The notes beneath the pieces were generated by a model, which was not told the origin of the DNA, searched no databases, and saw only the letters and a program-made list of their open reading frames with translations. The translations under genes were made by a program, and so were the position numbers. Shown piece after piece: positions 17,197-23,833 of a DNA stretch of 64,000 nt. Each line of letters starts with the position of its first letter. Position 1 is the stretch's first letter. This DNA is from a virus: IMG/VR virus record IMGVR_UViG_3300042691_038651, positions 1 through 64,000 of that record, one strand, 5' to 3'.

Positions 17197-17805
17197 ATGT
17201 GCTATACACGTGAACAGATTGAAAAGGCCGTGAAGGCAAAAGGTTACAAATGGTTTGAAGATGCCGCTAACAAAACCTATGATGTAAATATCGTAGGAGT
17301 TCGTAACAATACTCCTTCAGTTGCCGATAAGGTTACCAACGTATTTGATGATTGCCTGACAATCTCTTACAAAGACGAAACAGGTGCATGGCAGTTTTAC
17401 TGCTGGATGGGAACCTGCGATCCTGGTAAAAAAGGCGTAGAACAGTTCCACAATAGCAGAGGAGTTGCTCGACTTGTTCCTGGACAATACCGCGGAGTTT
17501 GGATGATTGATAAACACCAAGGAAAGTACGATGCTCTTTGCCAAAGAGGCGGTAATGTTACTGTGTATCGAGATGCTGACCGCAATGCAACATTCAATGA
17601 AAGCGTGACTGACACGGGAATGTTTGGTATAAACATTCACAAAGCTGGCCAAGATTCAACCTGGGTTGAAAATTGGAGCGAGGGCTGTCAAGTTTTCAAA
17701 AGAGTAAAAGATTTTGATGCTTTTATGTCAATCTGTCGCAAAGCTGCAAAGATTCACGGAAACAAATTTTCTTACACTCTAATAGAATCAACTGATATTG
17801 CATGA
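17197..17805 (+). CDS. L,D-transpeptidase-like peptidoglycan enzyme or lysin
   Basis: The 202-residue protein has GINIHKAGQDS followed by WSEGCQVF near residues 147-170. His followed by S-x-G-C resembles the YkuD L,D-transpeptidase active site, where Cys is the nucleophile. The N-terminal part (YTREQIEKAVKAKGYKWFED) resembles short phage lysin modules, and the middle includes N-I-V-G-V-R-N. Bacteroidota phages encode similar proteins. It carries no packaging leader and no signal peptide, so it could be a cytoplasmic endolysin needing a holin or a virion enzyme. It is flanked by tagged genes and overlaps the next by four bases. Activity is inferred. Confidence 0.5.
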   Translation: MCYTREQIEKAVKAKGYKWFEDAANKTYDVNIVGVRNNTPSVADKVTNVFDDCLTISYKDETGAWQFYCWMGTCDPGKKGVEQFHNSRGVARLVPGQYRGVWMIDKHQGKYDALCQRGGNVTVYRDADRNATFNESVTDTGMFGINIHKAGQDSTWVENWSEGCQVFKRVKDFDAFMSICRKAAKIHGNKFSYTLIESTDIA

Positions 17806-18380
17806 ACTACATAAAGACATTTGAAAGCTTCATTTTTGAAGCGGATGGAAAAAAAGTTGTTTTCTTTCCAGGTAGGTTTCAGCCGTTTCACAATGGCCAC
17901 CTAGCCGCTTTGAAGAGAACTTCAGAAGAGTTTGGCTTGCCGGTTATTCCACTGCAAATTGTTTCCAAAAATGAAGACTCACCGTTTCCCGATGCTCTTC
18001 TCAATAAAATGGCAAAAGATGTGGTAGCTGCAAATAGCTTTATCGCTGACTTTTTCATCTATCCAAAAGGAGAAAAGACCGTCATTCCTATGATGGTACA
18101 ATTTCTTCGCAAACAGGGATACGAACCAATGGGACTGGGCGCCGGCGCTGACCGCATGAAAGACTATCTTCGTCAGGTTGACTACATCACGGGTCCTAAA
18201 ACCGATACACCGGTTGATCCCAGCTTTACAGTAAAAATGGTAGATGCCCGTGAAGGCGATGGACCAAGTGGAACAAAAGTTCGTCAAGCCTTGAAGGACG
18301 ACGACCAGGCAGCATTCAACGCTTTAATGCCAAAAGAACTACATAAATACTATAAGGAACTCCAAAAATACATACGCTAA
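17802..18380 (+). CDS. leader-tagged HxGH adenylyltransferase (NMNAT/PPAT-like)
   Basis: The leader M-N-Y-I-K-T-F-E-S-F-I-F-E-A is followed by a complete nucleotidyltransferase domain: VVFFPGRFQPFHNGHLAAL with H30-N-G-H33, and a C-terminal SGTKVRQAL that matches the (S/T)-x-x-R signature. This family transfers AMP or CMP to a phosphorylated small molecule, as in NAD or CoA synthesis. The 192-residue length matches NMN adenylyltransferases once the leader is removed. The predicted cut leaves D-G-K-K-V-V-F-F as the mature start, directly before the first strand, so the leader is cleanly appended to an enzyme. Its substrate is unknown; NMN is possible given phage NAD metabolism. Confidence 0.75.
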   Translation: MNYIKTFESFIFEADGKKVVFFPGRFQPFHNGHLAALKRTSEEFGLPVIPLQIVSKNEDSPFPDALLNKMAKDVVAANSFIADFFIYPKGEKTVIPMMVQFLRKQGYEPMGLGAGADRMKDYLRQVDYITGPKTDTPVDPSFTVKMVDAREGDGPSGTKVRQALKDDDQAAFNALMPKELHKYYKELQKYIR

Positions 18381-18738: not shown

Positions 18739-19371
18739 ATGATAGTAGATCTATTCGTACACAAAGACAAAAGCTCTCCCACAACTCAGGTTTGGCAGAG
18801 CTTTTTTAGTGAATACCTGCCGCATTGGAAACTGCGGCTCTGTTTTGCTGATGAAATTCTTAGATCTGACGCAAAACATGTACTATTCCCAGGCGGCTCA
18901 GGTTCAGCCTTTTACAAAGCTCTTGGAGAAGAAAACTCAGCAAGAGTCATTGATTGGGTACACCGTGGAGGATCATACATTGGTGTTTGTGCAGGCGCCT
19001 ACTTGGCATCCAGCCACTTAAAGATTACACCACTGTCCATACCGGACAAGGCATGGGAGCGCGGCTTACACGATGCTGACATACTGATGGATGGCAAGAT
19101 ACAAACCGTAAACTACCATAACGGACCAATCTTTGAGTCACATCCTAATGTGGAAGTATGGGCAACTTTTAAGAGTAATTACCTGGCAGAAGGTGGGTAT
19201 TTTGCAATGGAGGAAACTCCTGCAATTACTCATAATGAATACGGCATGGGCTTAGTTACCCTGTTTAGCCCGCATCTAGAAAAGTCGTCGCACGAAATAA
19301 AGAAAGAATTGGCTCTCATCTTTGAATATATAGAAAGTAAAAATCATCCAAGTCTCACATGCAATACGTAA
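18739..19371 (+). CDS. class I glutamine amidotransferase-like protein (BPL_N type)
   Basis: The 210-residue protein has the nucleophile elbow G-V-C84-A-G-A-Y, preceded by HVLFPGGSG (oxyanion region), and a downstream S-P-H179-L-E181 pair completing a Cys-His-Glu triad. This fits the class I glutamine amidotransferase fold, closest in feel to the N-terminal domain of biotin-protein ligases, which acts in an unknown reaction. It has no packaging leader. The next two genes encode an ATP-grasp enzyme and an amino-acid dehydrogenase-like enzyme, and overlaps of 13 and 4 bases tie all three together, suggesting a small metabolic module. The donor (ammonia from Gln?) and acceptor are unknown. Confidence 0.65.
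   Translation: MIVDLFVHKDKSSPTTQVWQSFFSEYLPHWKLRLCFADEILRSDAKHVLFPGGSGSAFYKALGEENSARVIDWVHRGGSYIGVCAGAYLASSHLKITPLSIPDKAWERGLHDADILMDGKIQTVNYHNGPIFESHPNVEVWATFKSNYLAEGGYFAMEETPAITHNEYGMGLVTLFSPHLEKSSHEIKKELALIFEYIESKNHPSLTCNT
19325..19333 (+). promoter_or_regulatory. candidate late promoter inside upstream gene
   Basis: GAATATATAGAAAGTAAAAA (from 19324) lies within the 3' end of the amidotransferase-like gene and 25 bases before the tagged ATP-grasp start. It matches the AATATATAG variant seen at 23237. Coding constraint may explain part of the match, so confidence is lower. Confidence 0.35.
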
Positions 19372-20450
19372 AACTCTTCGAGGAATTCATCTACGAGGAA
19401 AACTTCAAAAGCAAATATGCCAAAAAAGTGGCATGGATCATGCAGTCACACGACATTCATTCCACATCAGGAAATGTAAATGCTCGTGAAAAGAAATACA
19501 ATGTGGCTGCCAAAGGCAATCTCTTCCTTAATTTTGCAACTAAAGAGGAGTTTGACAAGGATGACATTATAGTTCCTAACAACGTTCCTATCCTCTACTA
19601 TGGTGGATCTAAGGACGAGGAATCAGCAACTTTTATCAAAAACAAAAAGATTGTAGTAGATAACCTCTACAATAAGAGAGACTTGCTAATGATTTCTGGA
19701 GATAAAACCCAGTTTGCTGAAAAAGCCAACAAGTTCAACTGGTTGCCAAAGACCGTATTTTCCAAGAAGGAAGCTGTTGACGGCGCGGTAGGATTCCCGG
19801 TAATTGCCAAGATCAAAAACGGTCACAGTGGAAAAGGAATTCAAAAGTTTGACACAGCAGAAGAATTAGAAAAGAGCAAAGAGACGTTTGACCTCTTTTG
19901 CCAGTTTATTGATTTTGACCGTGAGTACCGTGTAATGTTCTGCCGTGACAAGATCATCGTGATCAACGAAAGAGTCCCGACCATCGAGGACAACCGCTCC
20001 ATCCGCACCAAGAAAGCGGATGAAAAAATTAGCTTCACTTATGTCTACCAAGACCAAAATAAAGTTGACAAAAGCTTTATTGAGCAGGTATTGTCAATAT
20101 GTAAAGACGTCAAAACATTCCTCGATTTGGACCTTTGGGCCCTTGATGTGGTGGTAGACAAAAAAGGAAAACTCTGGGTGATGGAAACATCATCTGCGAC
20201 AGGATTGGGTAGCGTGAAAATGTGCGAAGTCTATAAAGCAATCTATGAAGACTTCTACAAGGAGCCGCTTCCCGATGAATTTTTGCAAGACATCTACTTA
20301 AACTATGTAGTTCCCGGACATCAAAACTACTATCCCAAGTACAAAAAAGAAATACAGTCATCGCAGTGGCCGATGGACTATGAAATACTAACCAACCCTA
20401 AAGCCAAAGATGGCTATAGGTACTTTTTCAATCTAGACGTTAAAAAATGA
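19359..20450 (+). CDS. leader-tagged ATP-grasp enzyme
   Basis: The 363-residue protein has leader M-Q-Y-V-K-L-F-E-E-F-I-Y-E-E. It shows ATP-grasp features: FPVIAKIKNGHSGKGIQKF (ATP-binding strand and glycine loop), a pair of hinge strands (FDLFCQFIDFDREYRVMF), and a C-terminal metal-binding segment (LWALDVVVDKKGKLWVMETS). The family joins an acid to an amine through acyl phosphate, as in RimK or D-Ala-D-Ala ligase. The usual final Asn of the E-x-N pair is replaced by Ser in M-E-T-S-S. It lies between the amidotransferase-like and dehydrogenase-like genes and overlaps both. Substrate unknown. Confidence 0.7.
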   Translation: MQYVKLFEEFIYEENFKSKYAKKVAWIMQSHDIHSTSGNVNAREKKYNVAAKGNLFLNFATKEEFDKDDIIVPNNVPILYYGGSKDEESATFIKNKKIVVDNLYNKRDLLMISGDKTQFAEKANKFNWLPKTVFSKKEAVDGAVGFPVIAKIKNGHSGKGIQKFDTAEELEKSKETFDLFCQFIDFDREYRVMFCRDKIIVINERVPTIEDNRSIRTKKADEKISFTYVYQDQNKVDKSFIEQVLSICKDVKTFLDLDLWALDVVVDKKGKLWVMETSSATGLGSVKMCEVYKAIYEDFYKEPLPDEFLQDIYLNYVVPGHQNYYPKYKKEIQSSQWPMDYEILTNPKAKDGYRYFFNLDVKK

Positions 20451-21505
20451 GAACCGGAGTTTTTAAGACATCATACAAGGAAAACGAAAAGCGCATTCCA
20501 ATCTATCCTGAGCACATTCGCAAAATCAAGAGAAGTGTTCGTGAACAATTAGTATTTGAAGAAGGTTATGGTCTTGACTATGGATATTCTGATGAAGATC
20601 TAAGAGATCTAGGATGCAGCCTGGCAACAAGAGAAGAACTATATCAATGCGATACGGTCATTCTTCCTAAACCAGTTGCTGCTGACTTGGAAAAACTTAA
20701 GGACGGCGCAGTACTCTGCGGATGGACACATGCTGTTCAGCAGAGAGATATCGCTGACCTGGCTATTGAAAAAGGTCTGACCCTGTTGGCATGGGAAGAG
20801 ATGAACCTAGTCAATAAGCACGGTAAAATGCACATTTTTTACCGTAACAATGAATTGGCCGGGTACGCGGGAATCTTACATTTCCTAGAACTTAAAGGAC
20901 TGGATGGCCACTATGGACCACGCAAAAATGTAGTAATCTTGGGCTATGGCTCGGTTAGTCGCGGGGCAATTTATGCTCTGCAAGGCCGCGGATTCAATAA
21001 TATCGTGGTTTATACACAAAGGCCTTCGCACCTGGTAGTTGACAAAAATCCGGATGTATGGTACAAGTCGTTTAGTACTGACAATTTGATGGAAGACTTG
21101 ATGGGTGCTGACATCATTTTCAATGGAATCTTACAAGACGTAAATGCTCCACTGACCTACATAAAGAACGAGGCGGAACTCAATGCTCTAAAGAATAACA
21201 CTGCTATTATTGACATTAGCTGTGATAAAGGCATGGGATTCTATTTTGCTGAACCTACATCATTTGAAAGTCCTATCATTGAAATGGGTCGTGGAATTTC
21301 ATACTACTCGGTAGACCATACACCTACCTATCTGTGGAATGCAGCATCCCGTGAAATCTCAAGTGCATTGCTTCCATATTTGGAAACTATCGTGGATTCC
21401 AGCAAATGGATCAATGACGCGGTGATCTATAATTCAATTGATATTCTCAATGGTAAAGTGATCAACCAAAATATAAACAAGTTCCAAGGACGTGAAGCAC
21501 ATTAA
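20447..21505 (+). CDS. alanine dehydrogenase / carboxyethylornithine synthase-like NAD(P) enzyme
   Basis: The 352-residue protein has the N-terminal AlaDH/PNT motif (FKTSYKENEKRIPIYPEHI) and a Rossmann NAD(P) site (VVILGYGSVSRGAIYALQG, around 163-181). Length and this combination fit N5-(carboxyethyl)ornithine synthase or saccharopine/alanine dehydrogenase relatives, which form or break C-N bonds between keto acids and amino acids. It has no leader. ATGA overlaps with the ATP-grasp gene couple the two. An opine-type dehydrogenase followed by an ATP-grasp ligase suggests that a modified amino acid is made and then joined to something. The product is inference only. Confidence 0.65.
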   Translation: MRTGVFKTSYKENEKRIPIYPEHIRKIKRSVREQLVFEEGYGLDYGYSDEDLRDLGCSLATREELYQCDTVILPKPVAADLEKLKDGAVLCGWTHAVQQRDIADLAIEKGLTLLAWEEMNLVNKHGKMHIFYRNNELAGYAGILHFLELKGLDGHYGPRKNVVILGYGSVSRGAIYALQGRGFNNIVVYTQRPSHLVVDKNPDVWYKSFSTDNLMEDLMGADIIFNGILQDVNAPLTYIKNEAELNALKNNTAIIDISCDKGMGFYFAEPTSFESPIIEMGRGISYYSVDHTPTYLWNAASREISSALLPYLETIVDSSKWINDAVIYNSIDILNGKVINQNINKFQGREAH

Positions 21506-23263: not shown

Positions 23264-23833
23264 ATGACTCAGGTAAAAACTTTTTCAGAAAGTCTAAAAA
23301 AGAGAAGTATAAATGAAGCAATTACAGTAGGCGGACCTATTGCAAAGCCAAATGCATTACCAGGTGAGGTTGAGAAAACTCTCAATGACCGTTTAGGAGA
23401 TGAGTACACTGCGTACTATTTCTATCAAAATGCAGCTAACTGGTGCAAGAATGCCAATTACAAAAAGGCAGCAGCTTTCTTTGAAGCTGAAGCAGCCGGT
23501 GAACTTGGTCACGCTCAAGGAATTCAGGACTATCTAACATCTTGGAATCTTCTTCCTGCAATTCCGTCAGTGCCAACACAGGTACAATTCTCTAGCCTGG
23601 TTGATATCATCAATAAGGCATACGAATTAGAGTACGCTCTATTGCAAAAGTATTCTGACAATCAGTTAGAACTTGATAAAACGCATCCTGCAGCCTTCAA
23701 CTTCATTCAGAAGTACGTGGACATTCAGGTAGGTGAAGTTACTGAATACTCAGACTACCTAAATGCTCTTGAGCTTGTGAACGTAGACAACCGTCTTGAT
23801 GTTCTCTACTTTGAAAACCAATACTTTGGATAA
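23264..23833 (+). CDS. leader-tagged ferritin-like protein
   Basis: The N-terminus M-T-Q-V-K-T-F-S-E-S-L-K-K-R-S-I-N-E-A has I-N-E/A as predicted cleavage site. The rest is a four-helix ferritin-like domain: E47 (GDEYTAYYFYQN), E80-x-x-H83 (EAAGELGHAQGIQDYL), and later acidic positions in AYELEYALLQ (around 120-124) and VGEVTEY (around 158). These supply a di-iron centre in ferritins and bacterioferritins, which oxidise Fe(II) and store or detoxify iron. A packaged ferritin could protect virion DNA from oxidation or be delivered to the host. Cage assembly cannot be judged from the sequence. Confidence 0.75.
   Translation: MTQVKTFSESLKKRSINEAITVGGPIAKPNALPGEVEKTLNDRLGDEYTAYYFYQNAANWCKNANYKKAAAFFEAEAAGELGHAQGIQDYLTSWNLLPAIPSVPTQVQFSSLVDIINKAYELEYALLQKYSDNQLELDKTHPAAFNFIQKYVDIQVGEVTEYSDYLNALELVNVDNRLDVLYFENQYFG

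Follow-up and report, generated by a model that had tools for sequence, protein, structure and literature searches.

A conserved pair of ATP-grasp ligase and dehydrogenase genes in phages, with a capsid-targeting-type leader on the predicted ligase

An ATP-grasp ligase gene and the dehydrogenase gene directly behind it form a conserved unit of two genes, not three, across viral contigs. These genes possibly encode a pathway for amino-acid conjugation, in which a third gene is optional and the ligase would be carried in the virion. This is the reading that we prefer, and it is put forward tentatively. The folds, catalytic residues, leader and linkage are established at the level of sequence comparison; we infer the substrates, the product, the packaging and the target.

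The genes lie in the window, which is the whole stretch of 64,000 nucleotides that was analysed. The IMG/VR virus record that holds it has 100,842 bases and is incomplete. Three genes overlap end to end (Table 1), the amidotransferase-like and ATP-grasp genes by 13 nt and the ATP-grasp and dehydrogenase genes by 4 nt. A preliminary description of this DNA had proposed three overlapping genes and had named an enzyme family for each. The open reading frame positions bear out the former, residue alignments show the catalytic motifs to be intact, and family matches, folds and conserved residues bear out the enzyme families. A loss of active-site residues was looked for, and the catalytic residues are kept in all three proteins. 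None of the three matched a defence-system family. A Shine-Dalgarno signal is absent from the window's genes (10 of 83 start sites against 15 of 83 control positions), which would fit a Bacteroidota host.

Table 1. Positions of the three genes and of the leader in the window.
Feature	Positions	Strand	Length	Remarks
BPL_N amidotransferase-like protein	18739..19371	+	210 aa	No leader; optional neighbour, outside the conserved core
ATP-grasp carboxylate-amine ligase (predicted), core gene 1	19359..20450	+	363 aa	N-terminal capsid-targeting-type leader
Capsid-targeting-type leader MQYVKLFEEFIYEEN	19359..19403	+		Start of the ATP-grasp gene
NAD(P)H-dependent dehydrogenase (predicted), carboxyethylornithine-synthase/saccharopine-dehydrogenase-like, core gene 2	20447..21505	+	352 aa	No leader

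At all 18 viral loci with the dehydrogenase gene (17 contigs and the window), the gene immediately before it is that of the ATP-grasp protein. Of the 20 ATP-grasp genes that could be tested, that of the window among them, 18 have the dehydrogenase. The ATP-grasp gene was counted on 20 contigs besides the window, with the 462 kb phage LR756500 and its IMG/VR copy counted once, and one contig that is cut at its end lies outside the 20 testable cases. In the two exceptions, no dehydrogenase was found within 5 kb beside the ATP-grasp gene of contig L111, nor in the whole record of LR756500. The two genes often overlap, and they stay adjacent while the flanking genes vary. In the window, L002 and L004 the pair is part of an island of cargo genes, and it is often found among replication genes. 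In L006 there is a ribonucleotide reductase upstream and, by eye, a sliding-clamp-like gene downstream. All of the phage loci belong to one lineage group, made up of large phages, and common descent therefore accounts for part of the linkage. The co-occurrence of three families that the preliminary description had proposed to look for is thus present for the two-gene core, at every dehydrogenase locus, and is lacking for the amidotransferase-like gene, which is present in 2 of 18.

The product of this gene is a BPL_N protein (PF09825, 60.8 bits against a cut-off of 24.2) with a class-I-amidotransferase-like fold. The fold and its Cys-His-Glu set had been correctly recognized, as the PF09825 match and the conserved triad indicate. 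A scan of the whole collection yielded one relative, on contig L001, and Cys84, His179 and Glu181 are kept in it. A ferritin-like gene occupies the position upstream of the ATP-grasp gene in L002, L004 and L015, and the BPL_N gene was not seen beside bacterial pairs of dehydrogenase and ATP-grasp genes. Its presence at so few loci, window included, makes the gene optional, and it was dropped from the conserved core. The three-gene module therefore did not hold, and this one gene shows the independent distribution that had been named as evidence against it.

The second gene is predicted to encode a canonical carboxylate-amine ligase of the ATP-grasp fold, in the amide-forming clade. Its matches to ATP-grasp families in NCBIfam, Pfam and PHROG are all weak. 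In an alignment of ten diverse copies, K116, K151, a GHSGxGI loop, E189, R191, D263 and E276 are invariant, and this reaches to the LR756500 copy at 36% identity. The loop takes the form GHSG(K/L/I/V)G(I/V) in the phage copies. The ExN position reads E276-x-S/N278, with E276-T-S278 in the window and a true ExN in LR756500. The canonical hallmarks (linker Lys, strand-2 Lys, ssxGbGl loop, Arg in the kinase-like domain, Asp, and ExN) are all present. The template for the clades and the hallmarks of R2K ligases were taken from the literature; the latter are the lack of a linker Lys and of an ssxGbGl motif, and a second Lys/Arg in the loop (PMC4431377). Pfam hinted at R2K membership, and this was ruled out because K116 and GHSGxGI are both invariant. 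With PF18299, the window protein scores 20.5 against a cut-off of 26.2, and the LR756500 relative is above the cut-off at 29.3. RimK was also rejected, at 18.6 bits against a curated cut-off of 143.4 (NCBIfam TIGR00768). The AlphaFold model of the protein is poor (pLDDT 51). The best Foldseek match of this low-confidence model was Ddl, with RimK, ArgX, PsnB and the L-amino acid ligase RizA also matched, and these ranks were taken only as support for the fold because the model is poor. A search of the PDB with the ATP-grasp profile gave chance-level matches only.

The third gene encodes a protein with AlaDh_PNT N and C domains (PF05222/PF01262). Its AlphaFold (AF2) model has a pLDDT of 90, and alanine dehydrogenase is the top structural match (E=1e-22). 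R16, K75, H95 and D260 are invariant in phage and bacterial members and align with the catalytic set of Mycobacterium tuberculosis AlaDH, which places the protein in the AlaDH/PNT superfamily. It is not an alanine dehydrogenase itself. The score with TIGR00518 (68.1 bits, curated cut-off 391.85), the missing 12-residue AlaDH loop insert before the Rossmann domain, and the cofactor residue all argue against it. The second Rossmann strand ends in T190-Q-R192 and has no acidic NAD-selecting residue. Arg192 in its stead suggests NADPH, which the enzyme probably uses.

N5-(carboxyethyl)ornithine synthase performs an NADPH-dependent condensation of pyruvate and ornithine. The Lactococcus enzyme and the lysine-forming saccharopine dehydrogenase have the same fold and Arg/Lys/His/Asp set as the phage dehydrogenase, and likewise no AlaDH loop. 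At the NAD-selecting position the Lactococcus-type enzyme, too, is without an acidic residue; its catalytic Lys is present and, by eye, is one column off in the alignment because of a gap. However, the phage protein is only 28% identical to it, falls in a different clade (support 97/99), and has its own conserved FYRNNELAG and VDHTP motifs, so grouping the two was rejected. The family to which the dehydrogenase belongs is bacterial, uncharacterised and next to carboxyethylornithine synthase, and the protein has the full catalytic set. The phage dehydrogenases come together in a single clade of the tree (100/99), which excludes the bacterial dehydrogenases that adjoin an ATP-grasp gene. Matches to phage records labelled Staphylococcus, Listeria and Synechococcus were weak (21-23% identity) and were set aside. 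The Synechococcus and Staphylococcus matches show AlaDH-type motifs, and the Staphylococcus match sits amid metabolic genes of the host, in what appears to be host DNA.

Every viral copy of the ATP-grasp protein starts with an MKxIKLFEEFxxE-type leader, down to 36% identity, and L008 has the variant NLHTYESFLNEA. None of the viral dehydrogenases carries one. The leader had been described as confined to the ATP-grasp protein within the three-gene set, and MQYVKLFEEFIYEEN is indeed on that gene only. In the window, 23 of 87 open reading frames have the leader motif, against a mean of 0.5 in shuffled N-termini and 0.5 in internal stretches. The leader resembles the capsid-targeting sequence (CTS) of T4, and all viral ATP-grasp copies have a short N-terminal leader of this type. 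Ten residues of the T4 sequence suffice for entry into the head, and CTS-dependent packaging and ejection at infection are established in T4 (PMC9026906). The ATP-grasp protein is apparently packed in the head. In L111, only one gene separates the ATP-grasp gene from two head genes before it, which code for a maturation protease (E=4e-43) and the major head protein (E=2e-30). An S77/T4-type head protease is above the cut-off in three relatives and LR756500, and was recognized through PHROG in L111. A search of the window's own 100 kb record, which is incomplete, found no head maturation protease.

Among bacteria, the dehydrogenase family is uncommon, with a scattered occurrence. It was found in 5 of 246 Planctomycetota-group, 8 of 349 Bacillota-group, 3 of 150 Gemmatimonadota-group and 2 of 201 Chloroflexota-group genomes, with the genome taken as the centre of each sampled group included in these counts. 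It is also present on Escherichia coli and Streptomyces plasmids. Most copies are solitary or beside a saccharopine-dehydrogenase-like gene. This gene is directly upstream in a Planctomycetota locus (L042:4545-5966) and a Gemmatimonadota locus (L065:122-1486); it is a second recurring neighbourhood, perhaps for opine or lysine metabolism. A minority of bacterial copies adjoin an ATP-grasp gene. An ATP-grasp and carboxyethylornithine-synthase-like pair is in a capsule-type locus on an E. coli plasmid (L046:4849-15086, NZ_AP027746), and the same type of pair is amid insertion sequences on the chromosome of another E. coli strain (L069:8962-11078, NZ_CP148570). Two Firmicutes (L057 and L058) have the dehydrogenase family with an adjacent ATP-grasp gene, and Merdimonas has it with a TupA-type ATP-grasp gene in an exopolysaccharide cluster.

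These bacterial pairs (NZ_AP027746, NZ_CP148570 and the Firmicutes) share with the phage pair the dehydrogenase superfamily branch and an ATP-grasp gene directly upstream. They differ in having ATP-grasp proteins of the RimK/LysX type and no head-targeting leader, and the plasmid pair has a polysaccharide setting, unlike the phage pair. The E. coli and Firmicutes ATP-grasp proteins are interrelated (26-28%), and no relatedness to the phage protein was detectable beyond the fold. Unrelated partners and separate dehydrogenase branches suggest that the pairing probably had more than one origin, and such recurrence speaks for a functional link. The preliminary description knew of no phage pathway with this combination. 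The pair does occur in phages, but it is not unique to them, since bacterial members of this dehydrogenase family are found next to other ATP-grasp proteins. O-antigens are known to contain N-epsilon-(1-carboxyethyl)-lysine and alanopine, amide-linked and joined to sugars (PMC10609480). A route that first forms an opine and then couples it as an amide is therefore real chemistry, to which the genes here may be linked. The bacterial pairs predict a route to surface polysaccharides decorated with opines, and sugar-linked opines are known (PMC10609480). A search of the literature on ATP-grasp/carboxyethyl chemistry in capsules, or on the dehydrogenase in phages, found nothing relevant.

In the proposed conjugation pathway, the dehydrogenase would reductively condense a 2-oxoacid (pyruvate or 2-oxoglutarate) with an amine, using NADPH. 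The amine would probably be the side chain or alpha-amine of an amino acid, and the product an opine-type (N-carboxyalkyl) or other non-standard amino acid. The ligase would convert a carboxylate to an acyl phosphate and then form an amide bond, and so join the amino acid to a macromolecule of the host or the phage, for which a protein is the likeliest candidate. The leader would draw the ligase into the prohead, the head protease would trim it, and the packaged ligase would be ejected into the next cell, where it would act at the start of infection, like T4 Alt. The dehydrogenase would remain and work in the producing cell. That a modified amino acid is joined by the ligase was suggested earlier, and as an idea it is supported. 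Where the dehydrogenase is absent, the ligase and its leader are still kept. This points to the ligase as the effector and to the dehydrogenase as a helper, which would supply it with a better or different substrate.

Some points stand against this pathway. The ligase is without the dehydrogenase in two phages (L111 and LR756500), so the product is not strictly needed. The solitary or saccharopine-type-linked bacterial relatives indicate that the dehydrogenase family is not only for conjugation. If the dehydrogenase gene were expressed late only, there would be no product when the injected ligase first acts. A narrower form of the proposal, that the phage makes an opine-type amino acid which a virion-delivered, dedicated ligase attaches to host proteins at the start of infection, is speculative and somewhat doubtful. 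If true, it would be a new type of post-translational modification serving takeover. No description of a virion-carried amino-acid ligase with its own substrate-making enzyme was found in the literature searched.

ADP-ribosylation by T4 Alt is a known case of injected phage enzymes modifying host proteins. T4 Alt and the internal proteins IPI-III have an N-terminal capsid-targeting leader in common with the ligase, and packaging, cleavage and ejection would be expected here; Alt is an injected modifier of host RNA polymerase (PMC9026906). T4 Alt is an ADP-ribosyltransferase, whereas the protein here is a predicted ATP-grasp ligase with a partner synthase. The R2K peptide ligases, which are also phage ATP-grasp proteins, are predicted to tag host proteins with amino acids (PMC4431377, PMC7824862), but their sequence hallmarks are absent from this protein. 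In Clostridium difficile flagellin type B, an ATP-grasp gene and a neighbouring amino-acid-enzyme gene (CDR20291_0245/0246) are both needed for a peptidylamido-glycan (PMC5207246). There, 0246 is of the ornithine cyclodeaminase family and the target is a bacterial glycoprotein, whereas the phage partner is a dehydrogenase.

The pair could instead make a free dipeptide- or opine-like small molecule and modify no macromolecule; such a molecule might, for example, be the counter-ion of the DNA packed in the head, act as an osmolyte or carry a signal. Free dipeptide ligases are among the ATP-grasp proteins, the low-confidence model is closest to Ddl and also matches RizA, and a ligase enclosed in the head could use small molecules there. 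Only the ligase has a leader, and phages that lack the dehydrogenase keep it, as would be expected of a delivered modifier more than of a free metabolic enzyme; we consider this explanation unlikely, if a serious one. A little less probable again is that there is no joint pathway. The ATP-grasp protein would then be cargo, the dehydrogenase would serve amino-acid supply or redox balance, and the two would be neighbours by common descent in a gene-dense genome. The single phage lineage group, the two solitary ATP-grasp genes and the many solitary bacterial dehydrogenases agree with this, but the pair stays adjacent, and often overlapping, despite changing neighbours, and in bacteria the dehydrogenase family has partners from unrelated ATP-grasp families.

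Phage DNA could also be the target, with the amino acid coupled to a modified base. Related phages have a divergent second thymidylate-synthase-like gene, and the pair's frequent place among replication genes would suit this. However, searches identified no family of hydroxymethylases or of base-modifying enzymes, the matches in PHROG and NCBIfam being to plain thymidylate synthase, and the window's 100 kb record yielded no such gene. We know of no precedent for a DNA-modifying ligase packed in the head, and this target seems improbable. Slightly more improbable still is a pathway of all three genes, in which the BPL_N protein would supply ammonia or trim a glutamine-linked product. Its Cys-His-Glu set is intact and its gene overlaps the ATP-grasp gene in the window, but its rarity among the pair loci, the ferritin-like gene found instead in L002, L004 and L015, and its absence beside bacterial pairs all speak against such a role.

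The divergent thymidylate-synthase-like genes are at L079:5545-6399, L080:5302-6204 and L082:4598-5479, and some of these genomes also have a canonical copy elsewhere. The L080 gene overlaps a dNMP-kinase-like gene. A role in nucleotide or base modification is possible. Around the three genes of the window is an island of mostly small genes (11858-32628), at least 22 of which have the T4-type capsid-targeting leader, and it is predicted to be a large set of head cargo. Genes with the leader include a nucleotidyltransferase (17802-18380), and most of those scanned have no known family. A leaderless gene in the island (17197-17805) has a weak match to L,D-transpeptidase (YkuD-like) and a match to an endolysin-family PHROG. 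The ferritin-like gene appears to be mobile among the cargo genes, as it is at 23264-23833 in the window and at about 4340-4905 in L002, L004 and L015.
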